This document shows positions 258-8,757 of a stretch of DNA of 64,000 bases, piece after piece. The notes below the pieces were generated by a model. That model searched no databases. It was given only the letters and a program-made list of their open reading frames with translations, and was not told the origin of the DNA. The position numbers were made by a program, and so were the translations under genes. This DNA comes from an uncultured Candidatus Pelagibacter sp. (GTDB taxonomy: Bacteria; Pseudomonadota; Alphaproteobacteria; Pelagibacterales; Pelagibacteraceae). Within the stretch, counting starts at the first letter, position 1. Each line of letters begins with the position of its first letter. The stretch covers positions 1 through 64,000 of the forward strand of contig NZ_CALSOW010000005.1 in assembly GCF_943788075.1 (NCBI RefSeq). Reading direction: 5' to 3'.

Positions 258-1406
258 TTATTTTTCCTGGATTGCAATTCTCTTGTTGTACCAATTCATA
301 AACATTGAAATAGCTAAACTAATTGTTAAATAAGTAGCCATCGTAATACCAACAATCTCTATAGCTCTACCTGTTTGCATCATCGCAGTTCCAGCAAATA
401 CTAAAACTAAATCTGGATAAGCGATAGCAGCTGCTAGAGAAGAGTTTTTAGTTAGGTTTAAATATTGGTTTGTTGTTGGTGGGATAATAATTCTTAAAGC
501 TTGAGGCATTATAACTAGCTTTAAAACTTGGTTTGGTGTTAAACCAATTGATGCTGCTGCCTCTTTTTGACCTTTACCAACCCCTTGTATACCTGCTCTA
601 ACATTTTCAGCAATAAAAGTTGCTGTATATAATGTAAGAGCTAAAGTTAATGCTATTAATTCTGGTGGTATTCCAAGCCCCCCTTCAAAAGTAAAAGAAG
701 TTTTGGCTAATTGTTTTAGTTCAGGAAAACTCCATGATAAATCAACACCTCCAACAATAAATGTTAGCGCTGGTATAATTATAAATATACCTAAAGATAT
801 TAAAAATTTAGGATACTGTTTTCCTTCTTCTTCTTGTTTTCTTTTTGCAAATTTATTGAAAAAGAAAATAATTATCATTGCAATAATTAAGTGCTACTAA
901 AAAATACGTCAAAGTTATTCCAAACTGGTGCAACGGTATAAAGTCCTTTAATGGTCATATATGATGATCCAAAAATCAATGGAGCATCTTCTGGCATAGG
1001 TAATGCTCTTAAGTGCAGCAAAATACCAAAAAAATATCTGTAATAATAAAGGTACATTTCTAAAAAACTCTACATAAAAGCTAGCAGTTTTATTTATTAA
1101 ATAGTTAGGTGATAGTCTTGCAACACCAACAATTATACCCAAAATTGTGCATAAAATAATCCCAATAAAAGATACTAATAAAGTATTTAACAATCCTACT
1201 AAATAAGCTCGACCATATGACATGGAGCCATCATAATCGATTAGTGAAAATTGAATATCAAATGAAGCTTCTTTTGATAAAAAACCAAAACCAAACTGAA
1301 TACCACGGGTATCCATGTTCTCTTGTGCATTCATTGTAAAGAAACCAAATATTAAAACTATAAATAATAGAGTTAAAAATTGAGGTAAGATTTTTTTAAA
1401 TTTCAT
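258..1406 (-). CDS. aapQ: Amino-acid ABC transporter permease AapQ, two frameshifts
   Basis: Membrane permease that pairs with AapM and takes substrate from AapJ. The track shows two pieces. The first starts MKFKKILPQF with a transmembrane helix and carries the HisM/GlnP-type N-terminal transmembrane region (AYLVGLLNTLLVSFIGI, EFFRNVPLLLQ). The second has the permease EAA loop (GQKEAAASIGLTPNQVLKLVIMPQALR). The join is recoverable: an extra base near 1010 hides ALPMPEDAPLIFGSSYMTIKGLY, and a missing base near 890 interrupts FFSSTLIIAMIIIFF. With both corrected the length (about 380 aa) fits the family. It lies downstream of aapJ, separated by a stem-loop. Confidence 0.85.
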
Positions 1407-4205: not shown

Positions 4206-5597
4206 TTATATAGAGCTTATTCTAAATATGTTTTCTACTACTGAAATGGAGTCTTTTTTTGCTAAAAAAACAACTCTATCATCTTTTTGAAATACAAAGT
4301 TTGATCTAGGTATCACTACTTTATCATCTCGTAAAACTGCGCCTATTCTTATTTCCGATGGTAAATTTGAATTTTTTAATTCTTTATTAATTAATTCTGA
4401 GGTCTCAATAATTTCAGCTTCAATAACCTCATACTCTCCATTTAAAATTGTATAAGCTGTTTCTATTGTTCCTTTGTGAATATGTTTAAGAATACTTGAA
4501 ACTGTGTTCATTCTTGGATCAATCAAATCATCTATTTTTAGAGAGTTCTGTAATAATGAATAATTTGGCTTGTTAATCAAAGCCATTGTTCTTTTATCAT
4601 TAATTTTTTTGTCATCTTTTGCAAACTTTTCAACAAGAACACTTACCATTAAATTATCTTCATCATCATTTGTAAGAGCTAACACCGTTTCTGCTTCTTC
4701 TAAATTTGCCTCAACCAACACCTCTTCATCAAGTGCGTCACCATTAATTACAATAGTGTTATTTAATTCATTTGCTAAAAATTCAGACCGATCTTTATCT
4801 TTTTCGATAATTTTAACTCTTACAGCATCTAAGCTCTCCTCAAGGTTCTTTGCAAGATTAAAGCCGATATTGCCCCCACCAACAATTAGTATTTTTTTTG
4901 ATACTTTTTCAGTATGACCAAATGCTTCTAGTGTTTGGGACATTTGAGAAGAATTTATAATTACATAAATCTTATCATCTTTTTGAATATCATCATTTTT
5001 TTTAGGGATTAAAAATTTATCTCCTCTTATGACACCAATAATATTTGCATCAAGATTAGGATGTTTTTTTGTTAATTCATTCAGTTTAATATTAATTAGA
5101 TTACAATTATCATTAATCAAGATTTCTAATAATCTAATTTTATTGTCAGCAAAAGGGACACTATCTAAAGCTCCAGGTGCTTCTAATTTTCTTTGAATAG
5201 ATTTTGCTATTTCTAACTCAGGTGAAATAATTACATCGATTGGTAAATTTTCTTTATTGTAAACAGTAGTAAATTTTGGATTTAAATAATCTTGAGATCT
5301 AATTCTAGCAATTTTTTTTGGAATATTAAAAATAGAAAAAGCTATTTGACAAATAACCATATTAATTTCATCGTTACGTGTAACAGCTATAATCATATCT
5401 GTTTCTGATGCGTTGGCTTTTTCTAATATTGATGGATAAGTGGCTTTACCGACTATAGCTTTTACATCTAATGATTCATCAATTTTTTGAATATCTTCAC
5501 TAGATTGATCAATAACAGTAATTGAATGACCCTGTTCACTAAGTTGTTTGGCTATAGTAAAACCTACTCTGCCAGCACCACAAATAATTATATTCAT
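4206..5597 (-). CDS. trkA: Trk potassium uptake regulatory subunit TrkA
   Basis: Cytoplasmic NAD(H)-binding gating subunit of the Trk K+ system, 463 aa. Two RCK/KTN units are visible: the first starts MNIIICGAGRVGFTIAKQL at residue 1 and the second KKILIVGGGNIGFNLAKNL near residue 234, each a Rossmann GxGxxG fold, each followed by a TrkA-C domain (for example IRIGAVLRDDKVVIPRSNFVF near the end). Lies directly downstream of ntrX (1-base gap), the alphaproteobacterial ntrY-ntrX-trkA order, and upstream of trkH. Confidence 0.95.
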   Translation of the reverse strand: MNIIICGAGRVGFTIAKQLSEQGHSITVIDQSSEDIQKIDESLDVKAIVGKATYPSILEKANASETDMIIAVTRNDEINMVICQIAFSIFNIPKKIARIRSQDYLNPKFTTVYNKENLPIDVIISPELEIAKSIQRKLEAPGALDSVPFADNKIRLLEILINDNCNLINIKLNELTKKHPNLDANIIGVIRGDKFLIPKKNDDIQKDDKIYVIINSSQMSQTLEAFGHTEKVSKKILIVGGGNIGFNLAKNLEESLDAVRVKIIEKDKDRSEFLANELNNTIVINGDALDEEVLVEANLEEAETVLALTNDDEDNLMVSVLVEKFAKDDKKINDKRTMALINKPNYSLLQNSLKIDDLIDPRMNTVSSILKHIHKGTIETAYTILNGEYEVIEAEIIETSELINKELKNSNLPSEIRIGAVLRDDKVVIPRSNFVFQKDDRVVFLAKKDSISVVENIFRISSI

Positions 5598-5598
5598 T

Positions 5599-6954
5599 TT
5601 AATTAAATTCTTTTATTCCCAAGATTTTTAGTTTTCTATGTAAAGCTGTTCTTTCCATACCAACAAAATTTGCTGTTTTTGAAATATTGCCATTAAATTT
5701 TTTAAGTTGGATAGTTAAATACTCTTTTTCAAACTTTTCTCTAGCTTCTTTTAATGGTACAGAAAGGCTATTTTCTGCAATCTGATTGTCAAAATTATCA
5801 ATTTTTAATGACTCCTTAATAATATTTGAGATTTTGTCTTTGGTATCAGGTTGCAATATTGCAATTCTTTCAATTAAGTTTCTTAATTCTCTAACATTAC
5901 CTTTCCAATTGTGATTTAAAATATAACTATTGTTCTCATCAATTTCTAACTCTTTAATATTGTAGTTTGCTGATATTTTTTTGGAAAAATATTTAATTAA
6001 TAACGGAATATCTGAAATTCTTTGACTTAAAGGTTCAATATTTATTTCAAACACATTTATTCTATGAAACAGATCTTCTCTAAAGTTTCCTAATTGAATT
6101 TCTTTTTTTAAATCTTTGCTTGATGAACAAATTAATCTTACATCAACACTGACATCATTATTCCCATTAACTCTTTTAAATTTTTGATCAATTAACACTC
6201 GTAAGATTTTTGATTGAATATCAAGTGGTATCTCTGAAATTTGATCAATTAGTAAAGTTCCCTTGTTGGATTTTTCAAGAGCTCCGTATGATATCGATCC
6301 ATTTTCTTTTTCTTCGCCAAATAATTCAAGTTCATATTTATTTGAATCTAATAAAGCACCATTTAAAACAACAAATTGATTCTTATTTCTTATAGAGTTT
6401 TTGTGTATTTTTCTTGCTACCAGTTCTTTTCCAGATCCAGAGGGGCCACATATAAAAACTCTACTTTCTGTTAACGAAATCTTTTTTATTTGATCAACTA
6501 TATTAGTTGTGTTTTTACTGTTGCCAATTAGATCGTAAGAAGAAAATAATTTACTTTCATATTCTCTATTTTGTTTTTTGAGGTTATAGTTTTCAACAGC
6601 ACGACTTACAAAATTTAACAATCTTTCTTGATCAAATGGTTTTTCTATAAATTCAAAAGCACCATGATGCAAAGATTTTATAGCCATTTCAATATTTGCG
6701 TGACCTGAAATTATTATAACGGGAACATCCTTATTCTTAGTTTTAATATGTGATAAAAGTTCAATTCCATCGTTATCTCCTTTATCTAATTTAACATCTA
6801 ATATAGCAACATCAGGAAGTTTTTTGTCTATTTCAGCTAAAGCTTGATTAAAATTGGCAGCAATTCTTGTTTTGTAACCAGCATCTATAATTAATTCATT
6901 AATGATATTTCTTATATCAGCATTATCATCAACTATTAAAATTTCAGCGCTCAT
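5599..6954 (-). CDS. ntrX: Response regulator NtrX with degenerate AAA+ motifs
   Basis: Response regulator paired with NtrY, 451 aa. The receiver domain (1-125) keeps the acidic pair D9/D10, phosphoacceptor D53 (ILDVKL) and K105. The AAA+ domain follows, with Walker A GPSGSGKE (170-177) and an FREDLFHRI arginine-finger region near 292-298. The C-terminal Fis helix-turn-helix is ISKTANFVGMERTALHRKL. Two key motifs are changed: the GAFTGA sigma-54 contact loop reads KENGSISYGAL, and Walker B is LLIDQI, with Gln at 238 where sigma-54 activators have Glu. I infer a phosphorylation-controlled DNA-binding regulator that does not activate sigma-54. It overlaps ntrY by 4 bases. Confidence 0.92.
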   Translation of the reverse strand: MSAEILIVDDNADIRNIINELIIDAGYKTRIAANFNQALAEIDKKLPDVAILDVKLDKGDNDGIELLSHIKTKNKDVPVIIISGHANIEMAIKSLHHGAFEFIEKPFDQERLLNFVSRAVENYNLKKQNREYESKLFSSYDLIGNSKNTTNIVDQIKKISLTESRVFICGPSGSGKELVARKIHKNSIRNKNQFVVLNGALLDSNKYELELFGEEKENGSISYGALEKSNKGTLLIDQISEIPLDIQSKILRVLIDQKFKRVNGNNDVSVDVRLICSSSKDLKKEIQLGNFREDLFHRINVFEINIEPLSQRISDIPLLIKYFSKKISANYNIKELEIDENNSYILNHNWKGNVRELRNLIERIAILQPDTKDKISNIIKESLKIDNFDNQIAENSLSVPLKEAREKFEKEYLTIQLKKFNGNISKTANFVGMERTALHRKLKILGIKEFN

Positions 6955-8735
6955 TGTTTTGTAAATATAATCTTTATTATTGCTCCGTCAGTTTTTGATA
7001 TAAATTCAATATTCCCATTGTGATCATTAATTATTTTATTAACTATTGATAGACCTAATCCGGTCCCCTTTTTTTTTGTTGTAAAGTATGGATTTAAAAT
7101 TTCTTTAATATTATTGTTCAAATTTTTGAATCCTATACCAGTATCATTAATGACAAGACTTATATGACTATCAAAATTGTTAAGTTCAATAGTAATATTT
7201 TTGTTAAAATCACTTACTTTTTCAGCTTTTTGCTGGATACTTTCAATTGAATTTTTAATTAAATTAAGAAAAACTCTACTTAATTGTTCTTTATCACCAT
7301 CAAAAAATAATTGCTGATTATTATGCGTAAAATCAATTTTAATGGTCAGGTCTAATTCTTGTAACAATTTAATATTATCATTTATTAATATAATTAGATC
7401 ATTTTTTTGAAAAATTGGTTTTGGCATTCTTGCAAAATCAGAAAATTCATTAACTAATTTTTCTATTTGTTTAATTTGGTTATTAATAATCTTTAAATTT
7501 TCATTAAAATTTTCCTTATTTTTTTTATCTAATTCGTTTGAGTATTTATTTTTTAATCTGTCAATGGTTAATTGAATTGGTGTTAGTGGGTTTTTAATTT
7601 CATGAGCAAGTTTTCTTGCTAGACTACCCCAAGCTTCATGTCGTTCATTTAAAACTAATTTTTCTTGTTGATCTTTCAATCGAACAATCATTTGATTAAA
7701 ATTTTTATTTAATATCTCTAAATCTTTATCAGTTTTAACTTCAGGGACTTTAATGTCCAAATTTCCTTGTCCAATTGAAGTGGAGGCTAAAATCAAATTA
7801 TTAATTGATCTAAAGAATCTAGATGAAAATCTAATAGCTATTGAAATAGATATAAATAATAAAAGTGAAACAATAATAATATAAATTATTGCAAATGAAA
7901 TTTTTATACCTGTGCTTTTTTCTTCAACCGTATAATAAAAATTTATAGCCTCTTCTGTTTCAGTTAAATATTTTGAAATATCTTTATCAAGATATTTAAC
8001 TACATAAATAAATCTATCGTTAAAATTCTGAAGGCGCATAATAGCAGCCGATCTATTTTCTAGAGCATTAATAATTTTTAAAGGACGATCATCATCCAAT
8101 ACAAGATTTAAAGCTTCATCAACTGGAGGTATATATAAATCATCATTCTCTAATGTTGAGAATAATGGTTTTTTTTTTAAATCAATTATATGGATTTCAT
8201 CAACACCTCTTATTAATTTTTGAGTTTGTAAAAACCTTTCATATTCTTTTTCATTATCATTTAAAAATTTTTTACTTTTATTTACATCAAAAGCAATAAG
8301 AACTATTTCTGATTGAATTTTATTTCTAACTTCATCAACATAATCTCTAGCTAATTCATAAGAGTTATTTACAACTGTTGTAACTTTTTTGTCAAAATAT
8401 TTCTCAAGAGCAAATGAAAAAAGAAATAAAGAAAAAATTGATATTAGTAAAGAAGGTATAAAAGTAAATAACGCAAAGTATGTGATGTATTTTTTATTTG
8501 AATTAATCCCATCCGCATCAATATCATTTTTGATAGTTTTTTTAATTTCTAAAAAAATAAAAATAAAAAGAAATGCGAGTAAAACAATATTTAGAACTAA
8601 TAAATACTGTAAATTCTGACTTGAAAGTTCTACGGGGCTTTTATCAATAAAAGTTAAAAAAGTTAAAAAACCTATAGATAATGTGATAATAAATAGGAGA
8701 ATTAAATATATGTTTTTTCTAATAAAATCGTGCAT
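6951..8735 (-). CDS. ntrY: Sensor histidine kinase NtrY
   Basis: Membrane sensor kinase for NtrX, 594 aa. Four transmembrane helices at about 8-28, 43-63, 83-110 and 278-301 enclose a periplasmic sensor of about 165 residues. A HAMP linker (about 302-355), the HisKA H-box with H378 (ARKLAHEIKNPLTPIQL), and HATPase motifs (IKNSIESI, KKGTGLGLSIV) follow. It is shorter than many NtrY proteins because no PAS domain is evident between HAMP and HisKA. Its start codon lies only 22 bases from the divergent ispDF start. The pair is linked in other alphaproteobacteria to nitrogen and redox control; the signal in this organism cannot be read from sequence. Confidence 0.93.
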   Translation of the reverse strand: MHDFIRKNIYLILLFIITLSIGFLTFLTFIDKSPVELSSQNLQYLLVLNIVLLAFLFIFIFLEIKKTIKNDIDADGINSNKKYITYFALFTFIPSLLISIFSLFLFSFALEKYFDKKVTTVVNNSYELARDYVDEVRNKIQSEIVLIAFDVNKSKKFLNDNEKEYERFLQTQKLIRGVDEIHIIDLKKKPLFSTLENDDLYIPPVDEALNLVLDDDRPLKIINALENRSAAIMRLQNFNDRFIYVVKYLDKDISKYLTETEEAINFYYTVEEKSTGIKISFAIIYIIIVSLLLFISISIAIRFSSRFFRSINNLILASTSIGQGNLDIKVPEVKTDKDLEILNKNFNQMIVRLKDQQEKLVLNERHEAWGSLARKLAHEIKNPLTPIQLTIDRLKNKYSNELDKKNKENFNENLKIINNQIKQIEKLVNEFSDFARMPKPIFQKNDLIILINDNIKLLQELDLTIKIDFTHNNQQLFFDGDKEQLSRVFLNLIKNSIESIQQKAEKVSDFNKNITIELNNFDSHISLVINDTGIGFKNLNNNIKEILNPYFTTKKKGTGLGLSIVNKIINDHNGNIEFISKTDGAIIKIIFTKQ

Positions 8736-8757
8736 TCTTAAATAATAATTACCTTAA

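Follow-up and report, generated by a model that had tools for sequence, protein, structure and literature searches.

In PspF, the Walker B residue Glu108 catalyses ATP hydrolysis and also signals the nucleotide state via Asn64 to loop L1 (PMC7175178). The engineered variant PspF E108Q has less than 1% of the ATPase activity, binds ATP about 30-fold more tightly, forms hexamers whether or not nucleotide is present, retains the contact to Asn64 in every state and needs GAFTGA for its sigma-54 work, while the trace ATPase that remains is stimulated by its target (PMC4132715). Relatives without the GAFTGA motif have also been described. Among them are Caulobacter NtrX, Caulobacter NtrC, which needs both Walker A and Walker B, and VpsR, a precedent for no ATP need (PMC10274813); the sigma-70-acting NtrC of Rhodobacter capsulatus, again lacking GAFTGA, is reported to need ATP binding, not hydrolysis (PMC10274813).

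SAR11, the most abundant bacteria of the ocean, have very few transcription regulators, so that each one counts (PMC13198564). According to a 2025 paper they possess two sigma factors and, with NtrY/NtrX among them, four two-component systems; phosphorylation of NtrX was detected in strain HTCC1062 (PMC13198564).

The window analysed here is a stretch of 64,000 nucleotides from an uncultured Candidatus Pelagibacter sp. Its open reading frame at 5599-6954 lies on the minus strand (the plus strand is closed by stops) and encodes NtrX in its SAR11 form, the orthologous response regulator that is paired with NtrY. The relevant features are as follows, the Gln clade being the group of 88 Pelagibacter genomes described below.

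4206..5597, minus strand: gene of a trkA-like potassium uptake regulator, directly downstream of ntrX, a conserved neighbour
5599..6954 (coding 5602-6954, stop 5599-5601), minus strand: ntrX, 451 amino acids, receiver, AAA+ domain of the sigma-54-activator type and Fis-type helix-turn-helix
5626..5742, minus strand: Fis-type helix-turn-helix (HTH_8), the most conserved domain of the clade, with a mean identity of 96% and a median dN/dS of 0.028
5890..5892, minus strand: sensor II Arg355, invariant in 88/88 of the Gln clade
6061..6081, minus strand: FRxDLxxR with R292, D294 and the arginine finger R298, equivalent to PspF R162/D164/R168, invariant in 88/88
6238..6255, minus strand: Walker B, residues 234-239 LLIDQI, D237 kept in 86/88, codon of Gln238 at 6241-6243
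6283..6315, minus strand: region of loop L1 (residues 214-224), lacking the GAFTGA tip
6361..6363, minus strand: switch residue Asn198, which the order of motifs places on PspF N64, invariant in 88/88
6424..6447, minus strand: Walker A, residues 170-177 GPSGSGKE, with G170/G173/G175/K176/E177 invariant in 88/88
6951..8735, minus strand: ntrY, membrane sensor histidine kinase, overlapping the ntrX start by 4 bases

The ntrX product matches the Pfam profiles PF00072, PF00158, AAA_lid_14 and HTH_8, each above the cut-off. The NCBIfam equivalog NF051870 gives 529.3 bits, below its cut-off of 600, and is the top match over the full length by more than 200 bits; by synteny and best match, the protein can be named a divergent member of the NtrX group. 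The ntrY-ntrX pair is followed in the window by trkA and trkH, and both the overlap and the downstream trkA recur in relatives; three SAR11 relatives show the complete order ispDF-ntrY-ntrX-trkA-trkH. The ispDF gene is divergent from ntrY, only 22 bases upstream (8736-8757), hence any ntrYX promoter must overlap the ispDF coding sequence. The NtrX operator CAAN2-5TTG (PMC9223101) is absent near the start upstream of SAR11 ntrY, and since 150 copies occur in 64 kb, no single site can be claimed as an NtrX operator. There is no ntrC in the genome of the window, where NtrX is the sole full match of the sigma-54-activator-type AAA+ domain, as in nearly all SAR11 genomes; secondary matches elsewhere in Pelagibacterales are weak.

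In the same window, ORFs 948-1406 and 258-878 (258-1406, minus strand), downstream of a binding-protein gene (1474-2514), look like a single amino-acid ABC transporter permease gene broken in two, which suggests a frameshift or an assembly error near 880-950. Apart from this, NtrX is missing from about one fifth of the genomes of the genus; gene loss was set aside here, assembly gaps being likely, as in the 12 such genomes tested ispDF is also missing (8), ntrY runs off the end of the contig stretch examined (2) or only ispDF fragments are found (2).

According to the sequence-only reading, this NtrX keeps the receiver residues D9, D10, D53 and K105, Walker A and the Fis helix-turn-helix, has KENGSISYGAL in place of GAFTGA after ELFGEE, and carries Gln at residue 238 of Walker B. 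The translated ORF agrees in every point: KENGSISYGAL starts at residue 216, Walker A at residue 170, HTH_8 is recognised, and Q238 aligns with E239 of NtrC1, the catalytic Walker B Glu, in the alignment to solved structures. The L1 segment has 10 residues versus 14 in GAFTGA proteins, so the GAFTGA tip is deleted rather than merely substituted, and in an AF2 monomer model this region is predicted to form a short hairpin turn. The model, which shows neither ATP nor oligomers, confirms the AAA+ fold (pLDDT about 90) and superimposes on the NtrC1 Walker B mutant 3m0e with 2.8 A rmsd over the AAA+ domain; the nearest solved structures are those of Brucella NtrX (5m7n/5m7o/5m7p).

The two motif losses have different distributions. 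GAFTGA is found in none of the 136 Pelagibacterales NtrX and in none of the 91 NtrX-type proteins of other alphaproteobacteria, 57 of which come from genomes with rpoN; in the alignment, Brucella NtrX lacks it as well. Its absence is thus an ancestral, general and already known trait of alphaproteobacterial NtrX and, being shared by rpoN-bearing species, is unconnected to SAR11 or to the loss of rpoN. As for rpoN, the Sigma54_DBD profile finds none in the genome of the window and none above the cut-off in 297 Pelagibacterales genomes, and the Sigma54_CBD profile finds none above the cut-off in 12 genomes, closed ones among them, both searches detecting the positive controls E. coli and Caulobacter. 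Two weak matches were rejected, one of 19.8 bits (L062) situated in a secA-like ORF and one of 19.3 bits (G009) below the cut-off. Hence three features of sigma-54 enhancer-binding activators (bEBPs), the GAFTGA loop, the Walker B Asp-Glu and a genomic rpoN, are all lacking here, while the receiver, Walker A and helix-turn-helix are kept; this rules out activation through sigma-54 and makes sigma-70-type promoters the expected place of action.

The Walker B change is restricted to certain lineages. In the clade of 88 Pelagibacter genomes residue 238 is Gln in 84, His in three and Asn in one, never Glu, while the other 24 rows of the same genus have Glu. Elsewhere in the family, a group made up of three genera has Asn at this position (8/8), and Glu stands there in another two genera as well as in the sister family. 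In a maximum-likelihood tree built without column 238 (quick search, no bootstrap), the Gln/His/Asn clade is monophyletic inside Glu-bearing lineages (SH-aLRT 100). Under parsimony the Glu was lost twice and never regained, and the column takes five state changes altogether; the codons are CAA/CAG in the Gln clade, GAA/GAG in its sisters and AAT/AAC in the Asn group. The replacement is thus a real, lineage-wide variant, and the two losses are unrelated in time, the first ancestral and class-wide, the second lineage-specific. So the sequence-only reading holds as to action without sigma-54, but not in treating both losses as one event of one NtrX. Relatives with both motifs intact, taken there as the sign of a sequence error, do not occur: none has GAFTGA, though the sister clade keeps the Glu. 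A search of the open-access literature brought up no paper that describes this Walker B replacement in the NtrX of SAR11, which is apparently unreported.

Several individual sequences deviate further. Within the Gln clade, residue 238 has moved on to His (L064, L107, L114) or Asn (L110), never back to Glu, and L110 differs at Walker A residue 172 too, with Thr. Two members (L031, L101) have the Mg-coordinating Asp237 changed to Glu on top of Gln238 (LLIEQV). In two Glu-type Pelagibacter NtrX (L073, L074) R292, the equivalent of PspF R162, is His, and in four NtrX of other alphaproteobacteria (L255, L259, L260, L284) the Walker B Asp is Asn with the Glu kept (NE for DE). In one single-contig genome of another genus (G158:C1:945829-947162) ntrX lies in two frames, residues 4-72 and 73-448, which is a frameshift or error.

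The gene is under purifying selection. For moderately diverged pairs of the Gln clade, the pairwise Nei-Gojobori dN/dS has a median of 0.071 in the AAA+ domain, 0.053 in the receiver and 0.028 in the helix-turn-helix; the corresponding values in the Glu clade, from only 12 pairs, are 0.087, 0.065 and 0.054. On the clade tree AAA+ sites change 4.3 times on average and position 238 three times, while G170, G173, G175, K176, E177, N198, R292, D294, R298 and R355 show no change. Since 110 of the 240 AAA+ sites are unchanged, the nine pocket residues among these (all except D294) would all be unchanged by luck about once in 1,100. Moreover, the Walker A Gly/Gly/Lys is intact in 96/96 Glu-less SAR11 rows.

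Some positions changed together with residue 238: 172 (Thr to Ser, with Thr in the Glu clade and Ser in the Gln clade), 246 (Thr to Ile) and 348 (Tyr to His). Residue 351, the neighbour of sensor II Arg355, is Pro in every Glu-bearing SAR11 NtrX and His, Lys or Gln in 84/88 of the Gln clade. Because Pelagibacterales lost the Glu only twice independently, these joint changes are a hint with weak statistical support and no proof.

We consider the most economical explanation to be an NtrX that acts without sigma-54 and binds but hardly hydrolyses ATP, akin to PspF E108Q and controlled by NtrY, and put its probability at roughly 55%; its ATP binding, like its oligomeric state and its targets, is deduced here. 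The locked ATP state mentioned in the sequence-only reading as a possibility agrees with the published behaviour of PspF E108Q, and the residues of such a state (Gln in place of the Walker B Glu, together with the Asn, arginine-finger and sensor II partners) are all present in the window NtrX. In this mechanism NtrY would phosphorylate D53, and the ATP in the AAA+ domain would serve as a structural ligand, held tightly and practically never hydrolysed. Gln238 would maintain the switch contact to Asn198, ATP would no longer drive a cycle, and DNA binding and assembly would be decided by phosphorylation alone, with NtrX activating or repressing ordinary sigma-70-type promoters. Historically, the GAFTGA loop would have been lost first, in the ancestor of alphaproteobacterial NtrX, removing the use for ATP-driven remodelling, and the catalytic Glu much later, at least twice within SAR11.

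The main competitor, a serious possibility that we nevertheless doubt, is that the nucleotide pocket is a relic: NtrX would be a plain, phosphorylation-controlled dimeric DNA-binding regulator in which ATP plays no part, and the Glu would have drifted off once the ATPase had no function. Ten of the 91 NtrX of other alphaproteobacteria lack the Walker B Glu; half of these also lack Walker A and most others the Walker B Asp. The reduced-genome members (L252, L258, L271, L273, L274, L276 and others) have lost the Glu as SAR11 has, and such decay of Walker A and Walker B alike fits a relic, as does residue 351, which changes freely in the clade (18 changes). Unlike SAR11, however, they have usually lost Walker A, the Walker B Asp or the sensor II Arg too, whereas SAR11 shows decay at a single residue and no further, with Walker A, the switch Asn, the arginine fingers and the sensor II Arg unchanged in 88 genomes. 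Only two of the 91 (L171 with His, L252 with Asn) keep the full pocket minus the Glu, so that a deep lineage with a complete pocket lacking only the base seems particular to SAR11 in this sample. Furthermore, Gln, His and Asn are the sole residues found at position 238 of the clade, and Ala, Lys, Arg, Leu and Glu never occur there, although Glu and Lys are each one base away from Gln.

Brucella NtrX was crystallised with ATP and with ADP according to the PDB titles, which speaks for the ATP-holding regulator. With its Glu intact it is reported (Fernandez et al. 2017) to bind ATP, yet to have no ATPase activity and not to oligomerise, which favours the relic. If so, the Gln makes little difference, it is doubtful that NtrX is always assembled, and the Glu to Gln change may merely fix an older, pre-SAR11 condition, making it less surprising. 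Against the ATP-holding regulator it can also be argued that pocket conservation may serve fold stability instead, and that Caulobacter NtrC would be a counterexample, as it requires both Walker motifs despite lacking GAFTGA.

Slow but working hydrolysis, by another acidic residue (e.g. Glu241) or by water assisted by His or Gln, is improbable: the target-stimulated trace activity of PspF E108Q shows that some can persist (PMC4132715), but it is below 1% (PMC4132715), and with neither a GAFTGA loop nor sigma-54 there is no known machine for such a cycle to drive. A sequencing error or decaying pseudogene as the cause of Gln238 is refuted, even though the assembly behind the window is only 85% complete and a frameshift may lie elsewhere in it, by the identical replacement in 84 of 88 independent genomes, closed ones included and none with Glu, and by full-length ORFs with dN/dS about 0.07.

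A bolder version of the ATP-holding regulator, which we regard as speculative and rather unlikely, is that SAR11 fixed in nature, twice, an "ATP-trap" substitution (to Gln in one clade and to Asn in a second), by which the ATPase became a switch that holds ATP permanently and works with the housekeeping sigma factor. Such a switch would possibly be always assembled, or read the ATP level of the cell at very low concentration. In any case, a natural Walker B Glu to Gln regulator with a Glu-keeping sister clade offers a direct test of whether ATP hydrolysis, binding or neither matters, and at stake is the ATP need of GAFTGA-less NtrC relatives such as Caulobacter NtrC, R. capsulatus NtrC and VpsR.

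Compared with the known systems, SAR11 NtrX resembles R. capsulatus NtrC, a precedent for ATP binding without hydrolysis, in lacking GAFTGA and being independent of sigma-54, but the latter is an NtrC, not an NtrX, and its description mentions no loss of the Walker B Glu (PMC10274813). Brucella abortus NtrX (5m7n/5m7o/5m7p) shares the architecture of the window protein, with 41-42% identity and a GAFTGA-less L1 of equal length, while its Walker B reads LDEV with the Glu intact, where the SAR11 clade has Gln, His or Asn together with altered residues 172 and 351. PspF E108Q has Gln at the residue equivalent to Gln238, NtrC1 E239A (PDB 3m0e) is changed at the equivalent residue, and the PspF partner residues N64, R162, D164, R168 and R227 are all present in SAR11 NtrX. 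Those two proteins, however, are engineered, have GAFTGA intact and act with sigma-54, whereas SAR11 NtrX is natural and has neither GAFTGA nor sigma-54.
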